A DNA stretch of 64,000 nucleotides. Origin: Paenibacillus sp. FSL R7-0273 (lineage in GTDB: Bacteria > Bacillota > Bacilli > Paenibacillales > Paenibacillaceae). Location: contig NZ_CP009283.1 of NCBI RefSeq assembly GCF_000758625.1, forward strand, positions 7,024,501-7,088,500, given 5' to 3'. Made by a program: the position numbers and the translations under genes. The notes below the pieces were generated by a model. The model was not told the DNA's origin and did not search any database. It saw only the letters and a list, made by a program, of their open reading frames with translations. This document shows positions 45,242 to 50,941 of the stretch, in pieces (within the stretch, counting starts at the first letter, position 1; each line of letters starts with the position of its first letter).

Positions 45242-46396
45242 TTATTGTTCGTTTTTGGGGAAATAGGAATAAGCGAGCAGAGCCATCAGATTGTCAAAGG
45301 AGTACGCCTGCCCGGTATTCGTGTCTCCAAACCCGCCGTACAGCGGACTTTCCGGATCAGTAATCCTGAATTCGTTCATCCGTTCTATGCCTGCTGCATA
45401 GAGCGCCTCATCACCGACTGCAGCACCGATCATCGCTGTCAGCGCATAGATGGCTGTAGAGCGTATATCATTCGCCGGCGCTCCTTCGCGGGTATATTGC
45501 CCGTACAATGTGCCTGCTTCGACCTTTTCCCTGATAAAGCGTAGGCTCTCCGGATTCTCCCGGCCGACCTCGGTCAGGTTCAATATACTCAGCAGCGATT
45601 CTACCGTATTGATATTCTCCGACCTGTACGTTCCGGAAGGATAATCAAACCTCGTCTCATAGAAGGGAAAAGCGTCTGACAAATATCCGTCCTCAAGAAT
45701 TTCACTCATATTATGCATCAAAATACCTTTAGATTCGCTATCAATCGACAAATTTTGCAAAACACTTAGCCTAATATAACATAAAGTTATAAACTCGTTG
45801 TTGTTATGGTAATAATTGTCGTAGATGTCAAGCATATAGCCATCTCTAACGTTATTGTTGTAGAATTGTCTGGAATAAAGCTCCATCTCTTCCTTGTATG
45901 CAGGCTCTGCAAACAGCTCCCCGGCCTCATATAACGCTTCAATGATCCGCAGATCGTCCACGGCTGCATTAACCGTATACTGCCTGTCCAGCTTTGGGCT
46001 ATACCGGTAGCCGAACCCGCCCTCCATGCCAAAAACCTGCTTTCCGAGCTCCCATTGCTCCGCGAACGCTCCTGCATCCCCATCGCGGACAGCACTCAGC
46101 ATCATCAGAGAAGCCGATTCACTCAGGACCTCATGGCCGGTGGCAGCCTCTGCCGACTGGTCAGTGTCTATCAGATTAGTATAAATCCCATAAGGGCCTG
46201 TAAGCTTGCTGGCTATAAAGGCCTTTAACTGCTGTTCCTCTCCGGAAATCCCCTCCGGCGGCCATCCTGGAGTCGGCGAGGGCTTAGATGTGACCTCTGC
46301 AGTTGCCGGCGGCACAGGCTCTGCCTTATTGCTGCAGCCGGTTAGAAGAGCCACAACTGTCAATGTAGCTAGTAATATGCTGCGTCTTCTATTCAA
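45242..46396 (-). CDS. Lipoprotein with glycoside hydrolase family 8-like domain
   Basis: A protein of about 384 residues. The lipobox LLTGC lies near residue 20 and a Pro/Thr/Ser linker follows to about residue 45. The body is an all-helical toroid-type domain: HEVLSESASLMMLSAVRDG resembles the catalytic-Glu helix of GH8 enzymes, and NAAVDDLRIIEALYEAG the second conserved Asp motif. GH8 proteins (BcsZ, Listeria PssZ, CcsZ) hydrolyse or trim the polymer. TTG 46396 after GGAGGAG is preferred; the earlier in-frame start would include the ribosome site. First gene of the six-gene operon. Confidence 0.8.
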   Translation of the reverse strand: MNRRRSILLATLTVVALLTGCSNKAEPVPPATAEVTSKPSPTPGWPPEGISGEEQQLKAFIASKLTGPYGIYTNLIDTDQSAEAATGHEVLSESASLMMLSAVRDGDAGAFAEQWELGKQVFGMEGGFGYRYSPKLDRQYTVNAAVDDLRIIEALYEAGELFAEPAYKEEMELYSRQFYNNNVRDGYMLDIYDNYYHNNNEFITLCYIRLSVLQNLSIDSESKGILMHNMSEILEDGYLSDAFPFYETRFDYPSGTYRSENINTVESLLSILNLTEVGRENPESLRFIREKVEAGTLYGQYTREGAPANDIRSTAIYALTAMIGAAVGDEALYAAGIERMNEFRITDPESPLYGGFGDTNTGQAYSFDNLMALLAYSYFPKNEQ

Positions 46397-46445
46397 ATCG
46401 CCACTCCTCCACAAAAGGGATTTTTTGCCGATAAGTATATTACGG

Positions 46446-46553: not shown

Positions 46554-46591
46554 AAAAAGGGCTGCCCGGTTTTTTTACCCGGACAGCCCTT
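46554..46591 (-). terminator. Terminator of the potassium-channel operon
   Basis: On the minus strand AAGGGCTGTCCGGG pairs with CCGGGCAGCCCTT (one G-U) around a short A-rich loop, followed by TTTTGC. It lies 14 bases after the channel stop. Confidence 0.8.
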
Positions 46592-46605: not shown

Positions 46606-47622
46606 TTATTTTGCTGTAATTTTGCGGTAGGTCAGTTCATCTGACACAACATACAATCTGGCATTTGCCGGAATCGGCTGGTCCAGCCTTCGGTTTATGC
46701 TGAGATCGCCGTGGTCAGACAGCAGGGTGGCTCCCTGAAGCAGAAGCGCCTGAAAGGCATCGCCGTACGTCTTCCAGCTTGTGTCCACCGGCACCTCATA
46801 AATATCGTCCCCGTGCTGGCGGCTGAGCAGCTGGCTGATGACCTCGGAATTCCCTTCCTGCAGCGCTGATCTTACAGCCAGCCTGGAGACGGCATCGTGA
46901 GACACCACGAACTCGTTCACCTGGACATGCCGGAAATTCTGGATATTCTTTTCCTGCATAATCTCTACTGTAGTATGTACCTGCGGAGCTATCCGCTCTA
47001 TGCTGGAGACAATCAGCAGCGACTTGCCGTCAATCAGGGAAGACTCGTCAATGCGGATGTCACCGAACACAATGGCTGCCCTGGCACTTCCGATCGAAGC
47101 CTTCATTAGAATCTCATCGCTTGAGGCATCGCCGCTGATAAAATGAACCTGCTCCATCTGCTCCAGCGGATGCCGGCCGGCCTCGTCTATGATCACAATC
47201 CGGCATTTCGGCGCATAGCACAGAATCTCATCTACAGCCGCCTGTGTTTTCCGGCTCCAGTTGATCAGCACCACATGATCCGCCCCATGAAAGCTCAAGG
47301 TTCCAGCCCCTCTCCTTCTCTGCATCTCGCCCATAGCCTCGACAACCTTGCCGATGACGAGACTCAAGAGACCAATGCCGAAAATATATAAGAAAATCGT
47401 AAATACCTTTCCCGGGAGCGATGCCGCATAAAAATCACCGTAGCCGACAGTGGACATCGTTGTCATTACCCAATAGAAGGCGTTAAACCAGCTGCTGAAG
47501 GTGTCCGGTTCAAGCGTATACGCAATGGTCGCACTCAGCACAACGAAACAAAGGATCATGATAGCTATGGTCTTTTTTTTCAGTGCGATCAGCTTGCCGG
47601 ATAATTTGAGGAGAAAATGCAC
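46606..47622 (-). CDS. Two-TM potassium channel with TrkA-N (RCK) domain, YugO-like
   Basis: A 338-residue channel subunit. TM1 covers residues 16-36, the pore helix precedes the selectivity filter TVGYGD (58-63), TM2 covers 73-95, then a Rossmann-like TrkA-N/RCK domain begins near residue 113 (HVVLINWSRKTQAAVDEIL). The nucleotide-binding glycine pattern is altered to NWSRKT. B. subtilis YugO of this type works in biofilm electrical signalling. It is last in a cluster with DUF350 and an ATP-grasp gene, separated from DUF350 by 85 bases containing a GC-rich hairpin without T-run. Confidence 0.92.
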   Translation of the reverse strand: MHFLLKLSGKLIALKKKTIAIMILCFVVLSATIAYTLEPDTFSSWFNAFYWVMTTMSTVGYGDFYAASLPGKVFTIFLYIFGIGLLSLVIGKVVEAMGEMQRRRGAGTLSFHGADHVVLINWSRKTQAAVDEILCYAPKCRIVIIDEAGRHPLEQMEQVHFISGDASSDEILMKASIGSARAAIVFGDIRIDESSLIDGKSLLIVSSIERIAPQVHTTVEIMQEKNIQNFRHVQVNEFVVSHDAVSRLAVRSALQEGNSEVISQLLSRQHGDDIYEVPVDTSWKTYGDAFQALLLQGATLLSDHGDLSINRRLDQPIPANARLYVVSDELTYRKITAK

Positions 47623-47707
47623 CTGCCTCCCCTACTTCCTTAAGTTAATGGGACTGGGGCTGCCGCCGCGCAACCGGCGGGCGGACAGCCGCAGAGATGC
47701 TTAGAAG

Positions 47708-48109
47708 TTAAATAATCAGACTGCTTACTGCAAACGAGGTTCCGATGAATACGAGACAGAGCATGGTGCCTACAGCAGTATTGCCTTTTTCAAGCTCCTT
47801 GGAGATTCTGAAGCCCGGAGTAAACAGCTCAAATATCCAGTACGCCGCGATCAGGCACACATACCCTACCGCGAACCACAGCATCATGTGCCAGATCGAC
47901 GTATTGGTGTATGCCGCTACGCCAAGGATAATCGCCGTAGCCAGAAACTTGCCGCCGAGCGCCAGCGCCACAGCGGTATTTCCTTTTTTGATTTCATCCA
48001 TGTCCTTAAACGGAGTCATCAGGGTAAAGACGACCATGCCCAGCACCTGCAGCAGAATAATGGTCAAGACACTGACTATCAAATTTATAACTATCGTCAA
48101 TTCGCCCAC
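47708..48109 (-). CDS. DUF350 membrane protein (YjfL-like)
   Basis: A 133-residue protein with four helices. It contains two internally similar halves: KGNTAVALALGGKFLATAIILG and KGNTAVGTMLCLVFIGTSFAV, each starting E(I/L)xKGNTAV. This internal duplication is characteristic of DUF350. E. coli YjfL belongs to the same family and sits in an operon with an ATP-grasp protein, as here. Function unknown. The start overlaps the preceding lipoprotein gene by 13 bases. Confidence 0.9.
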   Translation of the reverse strand: MGELTIVINLIVSVLTIILLQVLGMVVFTLMTPFKDMDEIKKGNTAVALALGGKFLATAIILGVAAYTNTSIWHMMLWFAVGYVCLIAAYWIFELFTPGFRISKELEKGNTAVGTMLCLVFIGTSFAVSSLII

Positions 48110-48762
48110 CCCCGAAATTTCGCATAAGCCGAATCATAATCGGCAAAATCATGCACTTCCTCCAGCACGACCGATGCTGTTTTTGCCTTTTCAAGCGCCT
48201 TGTAGCGCTCATCATCTATCGGCTGCTTGATGCGGTTGCCCGACGGCAGCTCAAGCACAGCGAAGTTTCTCGTCTTCTCCTGGTACTTGGTCTTGTAGAC
48301 CCCGACAAGGTCAACATCCGTTGTAATCGACACCTTCAGATTCTTAAGATCCTCGGCAGCGGTATTCTGGTCCGGATAGGATTTAAGCGTTGTCCATTCG
48401 GACAGCCGGACCTCATTCTTCTGGTCGGCAGAGGTAATCATCTCGGCATCCATATACTGCAGGGTCCAGATTTTGTCGCCTGTAGCATAGTTCCCGTCAT
48501 TGGGAAGCAGCTCGTTGTCCGGCAGCACAGTCATATCACTGCCGATCAGATCGCCCACTGTACTCTCCACCACCCGGTAATCCCAGGGGACGCGTGACAC
48601 GCTATCCGTTGTCTCCGAGGTTCCGGTGTGGAACACGCTGTCCTCATTGCTGGAGCAGGCGCCCAGCAGCAGCACTGCAAACAGCAGCATGCCAAGCATT
48701 GCAGCCAGCCGGACTTTTGCCGCCCTTGCAATCCGTGCTGAATTCCTTTTATTCCTGTTCAA
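48097..48762 (-). CDS. Lipoprotein of unknown function in the ATP-grasp/DUF350 cluster
   Basis: A 221-residue protein with a basic N-terminus (NKRNSARIARAAKVR), a hydrophobic stretch and lipobox LLGACS near residue 35. The body is alpha/beta (VVESTVGDLIGSDMTVLPDNEL; VGVYKTKYQEKTRNFAVLELPSGNRIKQPIDDERYKAL). It may belong to DUF4247, but I am not certain. It overlaps the ATP-grasp gene by 14 bases and the DUF350 gene by 13 bases, so the three are translationally coupled. Confidence 0.75.
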   Translation of the reverse strand: MNRNKRNSARIARAAKVRLAAMLGMLLFAVLLLGACSSNEDSVFHTGTSETTDSVSRVPWDYRVVESTVGDLIGSDMTVLPDNELLPNDGNYATGDKIWTLQYMDAEMITSADQKNEVRLSEWTTLKSYPDQNTAAEDLKNLKVSITTDVDLVGVYKTKYQEKTRNFAVLELPSGNRIKQPIDDERYKALEKAKTASVVLEEVHDFADYDSAYAKFRGWAN

Positions 48763-49966
48763 GCTCCCTCACTCCTAACGCAATAAAATGACTGGCATTG
48801 CCTGTAATCGGTCCGCCTGCCCGCCCCAGAAGCCCGCAGGGCTTCCCGTTAATGACAAACATGCCGGTGAGCAGATGAAGCTCCCCCTCCGCAGCCTGAA
48901 TGCGGGCGAGCTCGGCCCGCTTCTGGTATACGGTCGGGAACAGCACACTGCTGTCAAAGCCCTCTTCATCTTCCAGCTCCAGCTCACCGCTGTCGTCGAA
49001 CAGGCGCACCGAACCGCCTTCGCGGCCGAATACGGATTTGGACACAAAGCTTCCGGAGAATACCGGCTTGTTGTAGGTAGGCAGAATATATCTGGAGATC
49101 GCTTCACGCTCCTCCTCATTGTATAGCAGCCCCAGTTCATACATCCCCCATACCGCAGCAATCAGTCCCTTGGACTGCAGCAGAATGCTGTGCGGTCCGT
49201 TGAACAGCTGGAGGCTCCCTGTCTCTACAGCATAAGCCAGCGCATCACCGGCTTCATCAACCGCCATCCATTCCTTCGGATACAGGGCAAACATCCGCTC
49301 AATTCTGCGGTTCTGCCCGTCGTATACCCGGCCCTGATCAATCCACAAATCCAGACAGTCCACACACTTAATGTCCAGACCGCTGTGCCGTACCAGCGCC
49401 TCGATGGTGCCTGAATCCTCCTGATGGGAGCCGTAAGCTACACAGGCAGCAGTATCGGGACGCTCAATTCCCCATGCTGCAGCCAGCAGCTCCTTCATCG
49501 CCCCGTTCGGGCTGCCGATTCCGGCCTGCTTACAGATCCACGGTGTAGCAATAGAGGCTTCCACATAGCCTGTGGGCGTATCCGCATTCAGCTCCAGAAG
49601 CTTAATGGCCCCCTCATCCGACACGGCAAAATCAAACCGGGCGTATCGGCTGATCAGCCCCGGCTCAGGCAGCGGCGTATCATCCAGCATCTGCCACAGG
49701 ACAGGCGGAATACCCAGCAGCTCATACAGATCCTGCCGGTGGTGGACATAACGCACTGCTTTGTCAAGGATACTCCACAGCTTCTCCGAGGCGGCAGCCA
49801 ATTCCCTGTATGTCCCGGCTGACATTACCGCAATCGCGTCCAGCCAGTATTCCTCCTCCTCCAGATCAGCCCAGGTAAAGCCAAGCTCACGAAGCTGCTC
49901 TACGCGGGGCGCGCGTTCCAGCCCCGACTGGTCAAGCAGCTCAAAGACGCTCTTCTGCGGGCTCAT
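48749..49966 (-). CDS. Glutathionylspermidine synthase-like ATP-grasp amide ligase (YgiC/YjfC type)
   Basis: A 405-residue protein matching the C-terminal synthetase domain of GspS. Marks: SRYARFDFAVSDEGAIKLLELNADTPTGYVEAS (Mg-ATP/substrate pocket), RHSGLDIKCVDCLDLWIDQGRVYDGQ, FSGSFVSKSVFGREGGSVRLFD (ATP-grasp lysine and Gly-rich loop) and the end PITGNASHFIAL. E. coli YgiC and YjfC are the nearest known relatives; their amide-forming substrate is unknown and they lack glutathionylspermidine activity. It overlaps the upstream Ser/Gly-rich protein gene by four bases. Confidence 0.92.
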   Translation of the reverse strand: MSPQKSVFELLDQSGLERAPRVEQLRELGFTWADLEEEEYWLDAIAVMSAGTYRELAAASEKLWSILDKAVRYVHHRQDLYELLGIPPVLWQMLDDTPLPEPGLISRYARFDFAVSDEGAIKLLELNADTPTGYVEASIATPWICKQAGIGSPNGAMKELLAAAWGIERPDTAACVAYGSHQEDSGTIEALVRHSGLDIKCVDCLDLWIDQGRVYDGQNRRIERMFALYPKEWMAVDEAGDALAYAVETGSLQLFNGPHSILLQSKGLIAAVWGMYELGLLYNEEEREAISRYILPTYNKPVFSGSFVSKSVFGREGGSVRLFDDSGELELEDEEGFDSSVLFPTVYQKRAELARIQAAEGELHLLTGMFVINGKPCGLLGRAGGPITGNASHFIALGVRELEQE

Positions 49967-50694
49967 CCGCCGAAACCGCTGCTTCTGCCTGAGCTCTTGG
50001 AGGAAGAGCTCTTGGAGCTTCCGGATTTGACAGAGGAGCTTGACTTGCTGCCAGAGCTTGAGCCTGATGAGGAGCCCAGTCCGCTTGAGGTTCCTCCGAC
50101 CCCGCCGGCCGAGGAAGAGCCCCTGCGGGTAATCGAGCCTGTTGAAGATGTTGAAGTTTTGGGCTTAACCACTGATCCTGTAACCTGCTTGTTCTGAAAG
50201 CTTCCGCTGTTATACGTAGGCGGCTTATAGGTATTACGCGTACCTCCGTAATAGGTCGGCCGGTCATTGTACCAGCCTCTGGAGGAGTAGTTAGACCCGC
50301 TGTTGAACAGCATGTGATAGAGCAGCATGTCATCCCAGCCGAAGCCGTTGCTGTAGCCGCCGTAATTATTGATTACCGTTGTGCCGCCGGAGGTTACGAC
50401 TCCGCTGCCTTCCTGTACAGTCTCCTCCGCACTCTCCTCCGGATAAGGAATATTCCAGTCTACATTAGCATCGAAATAGGCCTTGACCTCTTCGGTCGAC
50501 CAGGATACCAGCTGCGGCTCCCCGCCGGAGCTGCCTGCCGCCTGGGCGCCTCCCGGAATGAACATGGCATTAGCCAGCAGGGCGATGCCAAGGGACGTTG
50601 ACAGCACACGCAGCGGCTTGCCCTCCGCACTCAGCAGTCTTGGCCCTCCGCTGTCTTTGGCGGGCTCTTCAGCCTTTTTGTCCTCATTCTCCAC
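49963..50694 (-). CDS. Exported protein with Ser/Gly/Lys-rich tail, YgiB/YjfM-like partner of the ATP-grasp enzyme
   Basis: About 243 residues. A membrane segment near residues 30-48 (TSLGIALLANAMFIPGGAQAA) follows a charged N-terminus. A Gly/Asn/Tyr-rich middle contains TTVINNYGGYSNGFGWDDMLLYHMLF and SRGWYNDRPTYYGG. The C-terminal ~80 residues are nearly all Ser, Gly and Lys and end RSSGFGG. YgiB/YjfM (DUF1190), encoded next to YgiC/YjfC in enterobacteria, also end in a Ser/Gly-rich tail. The GTG at 50694 after AAGGAGGG is preferred over an earlier in-frame start. The tail may be modified by the adjacent ligase (inference). Confidence 0.8.
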   Translation of the reverse strand: MENEDKKAEEPAKDSGGPRLLSAEGKPLRVLSTSLGIALLANAMFIPGGAQAAGSSGGEPQLVSWSTEEVKAYFDANVDWNIPYPEESAEETVQEGSGVVTSGGTTVINNYGGYSNGFGWDDMLLYHMLFNSGSNYSSRGWYNDRPTYYGGTRNTYKPPTYNSGSFQNKQVTGSVVKPKTSTSSTGSITRRGSSSAGGVGGTSSGLGSSSGSSSGSKSSSSVKSGSSKSSSSKSSGRSSGFGG

Positions 50695-50722
50695 AATATT
50701 TCCCTCCTTTCCTACCTTTCTC

Positions 50723-50941
50723 TTACTCTGCGGTGCGCATCGGGACCAGCAGGAGCTCAAGCTTCCCCTGATCCACATTCAGCCTGCCTTCAACCGCCTC
50801 ATATTCCCTGCTGCCCACAACAATATAATTGACATGCTCCAGGGCGGTAATCATATTCATACTCCACATCCGCTCCTCGATCACCCGCAGGTCACCTTCG
50901 GGCAGCTTTTCAAACAAAATGACACTCAATCCATTATCCAC
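50723..50941 (-). CDS. Small protein, first gene of the ATP-grasp/DUF350/K+ channel cluster
   Basis: A 72-residue soluble alpha/beta protein without recognised family: GLSVILFEKLPEGDLRVIEERMWSMNMITALEHVNYIVVGSREYEAVEGRLNVDQGKLELLLVPMRTAE. Shown here only by its ends: GTG start with AGGAAG nine bases upstream, stop 28 bases before the next gene. Its place at the head of the cluster suggests a shared role. Confidence 0.6.
   Translation of the reverse strand: MDNGLSVILFEKLPEGDLRVIEERMWSMNMITALEHVNYIVVGSREYEAVEGRLNVDQGKLELLLVPMRTAE

Follow-up and report, generated by a model that had tools for sequence, protein, structure and literature searches.

The window considered here is a 64-kb piece of the 7.29-Mb, one-contig genome of Paenibacillus sp. 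FSL R7-0273 (G000), and it harbors six genes, all on the − strand, that are organized as one unit (Table 1). In the 5' to 3' direction they encode a small leading protein (p72), a protein with a Ser/Gly-rich tail (hereafter the Ser/Gly protein), a GspS-like ATP-grasp ligase, a lipoprotein, a DUF350 membrane protein and a K+ channel. The genes of the Ser/Gly protein and of the ligase overlap by 4 nucleotides (nt; ATGA), those of the ligase and the lipoprotein by 14 nt, and those of the lipoprotein and the DUF350 protein by 13 nt. An initial annotation had read these as six co-directional genes, and indeed all six open reading frames (ORFs) were found in place and are closed by an intrinsic terminator, which was missing from the list of the automatic scan and was recognized only by reading the sequence. 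The automatic promoter scan upstream of p72 revealed nothing convincing. The Ser/Gly protein probably starts at the GTG at 50694 and not at 50778, as suggested by a ribosome site lying just upstream of the former.

Table 1. Features of the six-gene operon and their positions in the window (aa, amino acids).
Feature	Position	Strand	Basis
p72, 72-aa leading protein	50723..50941	-	ORF; no hydrophobic segment, no family
Ser/Gly-tailed protein, 243 aa, probably exported or membrane-anchored, likely acyl substrate of the ligase	49963..50694	-	ORF, homologues, hydrophobic segment
Acid-free Ser/Gly/Lys tail	49966..50262	-	Last 99 residues without Asp/Glu; composition of homologues
C-terminal Phe-Gly-Gly, proposed ligation site	49966..49974	-	Conserved among the homologues listed
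GspS-like ATP-grasp amide ligase (PF03738), 405 aa	48749..49966	-	Pfam, structure-database match, alignment
Lipoprotein, family without Pfam model	48097..48762	-	LLGAC lipobox by eye; invariant Cys
DUF350 (YjfL-like) membrane protein	47708..48109	-	Pfam; four hydrophobic segments
K+ channel, two-segment, TVGYGD filter and RCK (TrkA_N) domain; optional component	46606..47622	-	Pfam, sequence
Intrinsic terminator closing the operon: GGGCTGTCCGGG/CCGGGCAGCCC then T run	46554..46589	-	Read from sequence

ATP-grasp ligases, across the whole superfamily, convert a carboxylate into an acyl phosphate, which is then attacked by an amine; in the case of GspS, spermidine is coupled to the C-terminal glycine carboxylate of glutathione. 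A peptide-spermidine ligase activity was reportedly described in 2023 by Pederick et al., going by the title of their article. The ligase of the window matched the GSP_synth family (PF03738) with an E value of 1.5e-54 (186.1 bits, cut-off 29.3) and, since it is devoid of hydrophobic segments, it is probably cytosolic. Nine positions (R316, D318, E330, N332, E391, K498, K533, R538, and R598 in the numbering of E. coli GspS) are conserved without exception in 8/8 aligned sequences and, except for E391, they correspond to the residues handling ATP, Mg and the acyl phosphate in catalysis. On the other hand, positions S335, S337, and D610, presumably substrate contacts of GspS, are replaced in this alignment, D610 by non-acidic residues. 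The invariance of the former and the replacement of the latter suggest that the chemistry is the same and that the acyl substrate is a different one. The score obtained against the equivalog of the bifunctional glutathionylspermidine synthetase/amidase was far below the cut-off (39.1 bits versus 882), the match being confined to model positions 254-441 of 619. The nearest solved structures are those of E. coli YjfC (7uk6) and YgiC (7uk8), both of which are named peptide--spermidine ligases in RefSeq and are referred to as characterized peptidylpolyamine synthetases in the passages covered of PMC12568646. In two of the loci surveyed below, the ligase is about twice as long as usual, i.e., 878 aa in L052 (5390-8026) and 822 aa in L053 (6330-8798); in the former, a single frame contains two PF03738 matches in succession, and both ligase genes adjoin a DUF350 gene and a gene coding for a Ser/Gly-tailed protein.

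The Ser/Gly protein possesses a hydrophobic segment (residues 28-46) whose N-terminal flank has a net positive charge and whose C-terminal flank has a negative one, and the protein ends in ...RSSGFGG. The last 99 residues are free of Asp and Glu, and seven Lys/Arg fall within the last 60; because 100 residues separate the last acid from the C-terminus, the tail has no carboxylate other than the terminal one. Out of the 256 homologues found, the C-termini of the 120 listed were compared, and among these listed matches the Phe-Gly-Gly end is present in 120/120, an acidic residue occurs within the last 20 positions in 0/120, and the Ser-rich linker preceding Phe-Gly-Gly is poorly conserved. The named close homologues retrieved with this protein and with the lipoprotein belong for the most part to Paenibacillus. 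The initial annotation had proposed that the ligase attaches a peptide or a polyamine to the Ser/Gly/Lys-rich tail. Modification of the tail with a polyamine is retained here as an inference; the likelier site appears to be the C-terminal glycine carboxylate, rather than Ser or Lys side chains, because it is the sole carboxylate in the last 99 residues and belongs to the invariant part of the tail. The absence of Asp and Glu from these 99 residues argues against the protein being the precursor of a graspetide, an ATP-grasp ribosomally synthesized peptide whose modified core would contain acidic side chains.

A free C-terminal Gly-Gly is also a trait of ubiquitin-like modifiers, and it is present in 120/120 of the homologues listed. 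It might thus be imagined that the diglycine end is joined, as in ubiquitin or Pup, to a lysine of a protein partner (the Ser/Gly protein itself, the DUF350 protein or the lipoprotein). The chemistry of ATP-grasp enzymes, which requires only an amine, and the Lys/Arg residues of the linker would be compatible with such a conjugation; nevertheless, we regard it as very improbable, given that the RefSeq names of the E. coli homologues indicate spermidine and that no partner is indicated by the present data. Amidation of the terminal glycine by a polyamine appears preferable to us.

None of the Pfam and NCBIfam models matched the Ser/Gly protein, the lipoprotein or p72 above its curated cut-off, and only scattered weak Pfam matches (E 0.014 or worse) were obtained with 50 homologues each of the lipoprotein and of the Ser/Gly protein. 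In particular, neither the window protein nor any of the 50 homologues matched DUF1190 (PF06693), a model against which E. coli YgiB scores E 2.9e-55. YgiB, whose gene precedes ygiC, ends in ...SRSMGG, and YjfM, whose gene precedes yjfC, ends in ...RGHWGG. A GG end was observed in 58 of 112 YjfM homologues, many of which are fragments or fusions, and in 55 of the 57 that carry an RGG[FY]G-type motif. When the last 55 residues were removed, the cores of the window type and of DUF1190 showed no detectable homology (hhalign probability 0.6%, compared with 50% for the full-length proteins). Weak links among the other tail types (59-83%) make a distant common descent of the tail types possible. Thus, the presence next to the ligase of a Ser/Gly tail with a GG end, which the window protein has in common with DUF1190 proteins, is to be considered a shared feature of these sequences and not a proof of common descent. 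Precisely because its tail protein is not recognizably a DUF1190 protein, the Paenibacillus version adds weight to the association.

The generality of this association was explored in 160 ligase loci (82 proteobacterial and 78 from Bacillota), misses being kept in. In each locus the tail candidate was the longest ORF whose end fell in the interval from 250 nt upstream to 70 nt downstream of the ligase start, and it was scored as a tail if its last residue was Gly or Ser, no Asp/Glu occurred in its last 15 residues and at least 7 of these 15 were Gly/Ser; the other 1953 genes of the same loci served as background. Such a tail was recognized in 142/160 ligase-adjacent genes and in 7/1953 background genes, five of the latter seven being tail genes whose loci had been counted as misses. 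Similarly, a diglycine end was found in 119/160 versus 14/1953 genes (four of the 14 are missed tails), and a [Gly/Ser]-Gly-[aliphatic/aromatic]-Gly motif within the last 50 residues in 130/160 versus 31/1953. Among the 18 misses, L053, L143, and L197 are near misses of the rule, the last two ending in GG; in L052, L134, L145, L205, and L208 the tail gene was not picked by the script, the tail gene of L205 lying about 3.7 kb off on the opposite strand and the ligase frame of L134 being cut; and in L105 a longer ORF in another frame had been taken. The other nine misses (L058-L062, L101, L111, L115, and L200) are considered below. Counts of subtypes and codons were made with a looser rule (6/15), which retained 146 loci. 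According to these counts, the subtype of the tail follows that of the ligase, since the motif [HKR]GGIG[SG] occurs in 15/15 loci with a ligase of the L046 type and in 2/43 of those with the window type.

These data bear on two further explanations. According to the first, the conservation of the tail would have nothing to do with the ligase and would reflect, for instance, the binding of teichoic acid, of the membrane or of the DUF350 protein, and the ligase would act elsewhere. Ser/Gly/Lys tails are, in fact, generic low-complexity linkers, and the linker itself is poorly conserved; yet it is the very C-terminus, with its carboxylate free, that does not vary, in genes located beside the ligase in 142/160 loci, and the ligase subtype tracks the tail subtype, so that we judge this explanation improbable. 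According to the second, the ligase would produce a free small molecule (a peptide-polyamine or thiol-polyamine conjugate), and the other proteins of the operon would only respond to this conjugate or to polyamines. The family does include GspS, the maker of glutathionylspermidine, and the activity named in the title of Pederick et al. would fit as well; this possibility, unlikely in our opinion even if less so than the former, leaves unexplained both the Phe-Gly-Gly end of 120/120 homologues listed and the acid-free Gly/Ser ends of tails whose cores share no detectable homology.

A separate issue is whether the diglycine might be a by-product of the ribosome site of the ligase gene (GGAGG) or of the ATGA overlap. 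The two glycines are written by 15 different codon pairs, and cores of the ribosome site (Shine-Dalgarno) are present in 32 of 120 GG ends (10/45 in Bacillota, 22/75 in proteobacteria). Moreover, all that the ATGA overlap of Bacillota dictates is the third base of the last codon; Phe-Gly-Gly as such is not imposed by it. In an unselected set of 32 loci in which the end of the neighboring gene is at least 15 nt from the ligase start, a Gly/Ser end was found in 26/32 genes (background 335/1953) and a GG end in 12/32 (background 14/1953), the latter being distributed as 10/13 in proteobacteria and 2/19 in Bacillota. Because 10 of 13 distant genes still end in GG, the proteobacterial diglycine is conserved at the protein level. 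Taken together, the codon pairs, the frequency of Shine-Dalgarno cores and the counts in the distant set reject, or at least weaken, the idea of a side effect.

The distribution of the genes in the genus Paenibacillus speaks for a functional set. A ligase match was detected in 53 of 61 genomes, 52 of which harbor the window type, the ligase of the remaining one (G010) being a different one with 37% identity; two draft genomes hold ligase fragments. The lipoprotein is encoded by 52/61 genomes, exactly those with the window-type ligase, and the Ser/Gly protein by 51 of these 52, the missing case being G024, a draft of about 900 contigs. The eight genomes without the ligase have neither the lipoprotein nor the Ser/Gly protein. 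Such co-inheritance of ligase, lipoprotein, and Ser/Gly protein across the genus argues that the gene set is not a chance assembly; a scattered co-occurrence, looked for as a refutation, did not occur for these three genes. The window's ligase and Ser/Gly protein are, respectively, the sole PF03738 ligase and the sole tail-protein relative found in this genome. At wider scales, a PF03738 ligase was found in 212/246 genomes of the order and in 31/299 genomes of the phylum (24 over the cut-off).

Neighbors were counted on the same strand and within 5 kb of the ligase in 155 loci, i.e., after dropping L058-L062. A DUF350 gene is present in 21/21 loci of the genus, 40/40 of the order, 10/12 of the phylum, and 62/82 of proteobacteria, and a channel gene in 16/21, 6/40, 1/12, and 37/82, respectively. 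On the basis of these counts, the core consists of the tail protein, the ligase and, mostly, the DUF350 protein, the channel being optional: present in only 60/155 loci, it was rejected as a core part, and the suggestion of the initial annotation that the tail controls the channel cannot describe a general function.

As for the other members of the operon, the family assignments proposed at the outset for the channel, the DUF350 protein and the ATP-grasp ligase were all borne out by Pfam. The channel matched Ion_trans_2 (E 4e-18) and TrkA_N (E 5e-8). The DUF350 protein matched PF03994 (E 1e-31; 110.1 bits, cut-off 26), and no sequence match to it was obtained in the Protein Data Bank (PDB). 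Two further DUF350 genes were observed in the same genome: one (L067 5357-7122; G000:C1, about 4074360-4076120) lies, as read by eye, beside a PspA-like gene (222 aa) in a separate PspA/DUF350 module that also encodes a 168-aa protein resembling DUF4178, and the other (L066 6126-6545; G000:C1, about 2096125-2096545) directly follows a MutS_V/Smr (mutS2-like) gene. In the lipoprotein, the lipobox was recognized by eye; its Cys is invariant in 50/50 aligned homologues, and the strict lipobox pattern is not matched because of the Gly at -2. An internal start of the gene gives a 200-aa form (P0235). The best match of this protein to PDB profiles had an E value of only 0.11, and DUF4247, the lipoprotein of variants without PspA, was neither matched by it nor found among the families matched by its 50 homologues. 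The C-terminal 37 or so residues of p72 aligned with the C-terminus of a protein of about 155 aa with an hhalign E value of 0.0015 and a probability of only 17%; hence, p72 may be the counterpart of the C-terminal part of this 155-aa protein of other Bacillota. p72 and the lipoprotein always co-occur (44 loci), the 155-aa protein replaces the two of them in 20 loci, and it is found together with p72 in 0/155. An assignment of p72 to DUF2491/YjfK was rejected (hhalign probability 1%). Downstream of the operon, at 45242-46414 of the window, a lipoprotein-like protein is weakly similar to glycosyl hydrolase family 8, scoring 19.5 bits against a cut-off of 24.

On the whole, we propose that, before export, a polyamine is attached by the ligase in amide linkage to the C-terminal glycine carboxylate of the Ser/Gly protein and that the product has a role in the cell envelope, a reading to which, on sequence evidence, we assign a probability of roughly 0.57. 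According to this model, the cytosolic ligase would activate the terminal carboxylate as an acyl phosphate and join an amine to it, spermidine or another polyamine being the likeliest, by analogy with the action of GspS on the glycine of glutathione. This reaction would take place before the tail leaves the cell by means of the N-terminal signal or anchor. The capped and strongly cationic tail might then act at the outer face of the membrane, where its partners would be the lipoprotein and the DUF350 protein with its four segments, and some lineages would have added the K+ channel to the module.

The supply of the amine deserves consideration. AdoMet (S-adenosylmethionine) decarboxylase was not found in the window's genome. 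The same genome encodes a protein matching the NspC equivalog (499.9 bits, cut-off 409), whose gene (L212 260-2616; G000:C1 near 2498163) directly follows a dehydrogenase-like gene that, read by eye, would code for a carboxyspermidine dehydrogenase, so as to constitute an alternative route of the carboxyspermidine type. Since the NspC route is encoded, spermidine is likely to be available despite the lack of AdoMet decarboxylase, a lack that was therefore rejected as a proof against spermidine.

Several observations weigh against this proposal. The weakest step concerns its timing: signal or anchor segments are present in the tail proteins that were inspected, and the tail end is predicted to be outside, so that with a ligase inside the cell the modification must precede or accompany export. 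The identity of the amine is a second point, AdoMet decarboxylase having not been found in 27 of the 31 ligase-bearing genomes of the genus included in the draw of the order; because NspC was sought in the window's genome only, the amine may not be spermidine in other genomes of the genus. As for the diglycine, in Bacillota it is tied to close or overlapping genes (42/58, versus 2/19 of the distant ones, which are largely of the L046 subtype and have another tail end), and the pair GGC-GGA, favored by the ATGA overlap, writes 26 of the 45 GG ends of this phylum; for this reason, the control for ribosome site and overlap relies mainly on proteobacteria and on codon variation. A Gly/Ser end without GG is found in 26/146 tails, and 13 of the 15 tails associated with the L046-type ligase end in Ser or Gly without a diglycine. 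In the light of these exceptions, the rule is better described as a Ser/Gly end that is free of acids and closes with a small residue, most commonly in the form of GG. Of the five loci in which the ligase match is distant or weak (L058-L062), 0/5 have a tail adjacent to the ligase, and one (L059) holds a Ser/Gly-tailed ORF about 0.5 kb away; no tail was seen in L101, L111, and L200; and in L115 the tail-like coding is, at a G run, out of frame with the remainder of the Ser/Gly gene, which may be due to a sequencing slip. Lastly, 80 of the proteobacterial loci are mutually related, and the 160 loci are thus not 160 independent events.

If correct, polyamine amidation of these tails would represent a widespread protein modification of the bacterial envelope. 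The protein targets of YgiC and YjfC are not named in the passages covered of the literature on these enzymes, and the conserved C-terminus proposes both a target and a site; furthermore, it turns DUF1190 and DUF350 into the object of an assayable hypothesis. More tentatively, and with appreciably less confidence, it can be speculated from the sequences that in at least two phyla (Bacillota and Pseudomonadota) exported diglycine tails are capped by ATP-grasp enzymes with a free polyamine or a protein lysine, within a DUF350 envelope module. In that case, capping would be a prokaryotic counterpart of the SUMO-spermidine or of the ubiquitin-type conjugation.

The initial annotation had regarded the operon as undescribed, a view that we do not share. 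Operons combining a GspS-like ATP-grasp ligase, a K+ channel, DUF350, a DUF1190 lipoprotein, and DUF2491, with or without PspA, are reported in the parts covered of Ravi et al. 2024 (PMC11237479), where they are connected with the metabolism of polyamines and with stress of the envelope; as mentioned above, annotations also exist already for the ligases of E. coli. The third group of that work, as described there, shares with the window operon the GspS-like ligase, a K+ channel with a ligand-sensing domain, DUF350, and a lipoprotein, whereas the CesT/Tir-PspA dyad, DUF1190, DUF2491, AdoMet decarboxylase, and polyamine oxidase have no place in the window operon; neither the dyad nor a named replacement of it was found among the six genes. 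The terms "Paenibacillus" and "C-terminal glycine" do not occur in the main text of PMC11237479.

The likeness to the E. coli yjfLMC and ygiBC neighborhoods, pointed out initially, holds: in ygiB-ygiC and yjfIJKLM-yjfC, as in the window, a ligase of the same family comes after an exported protein whose Ser/Gly tail terminates in GG, and in the second operon DUF350 (YjfL) also lies beside it. The window operon differs in that its tail protein is not DUF1190 according to Pfam, in the lack of PspA, DUF2170, and DUF2491 genes, and in the addition of p72, the unnamed lipoprotein, and the K+ channel. With E. coli GspS, the ligase shares the ATP-grasp synthetase and the nine invariant positions, and it differs from it in lacking the amidase domain and in the three replaced substrate contacts. 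Spermidine amide-linked to a C-terminal Gly-Gly has been described for SUMO, with a mass shift of +127.15 (PMC12270671); in contrast to what we propose here, that system, as presented in the portion covered of the article, is eukaryotic and depends on E1/E2 enzymes and on a folded ubiquitin-like modifier. Hence, the operon is a Paenibacillales variant of a described system, and its new part, as far as the sources could be read, would be the conserved acid-free Gly/Ser C-terminus of the gene product neighboring the ligase.

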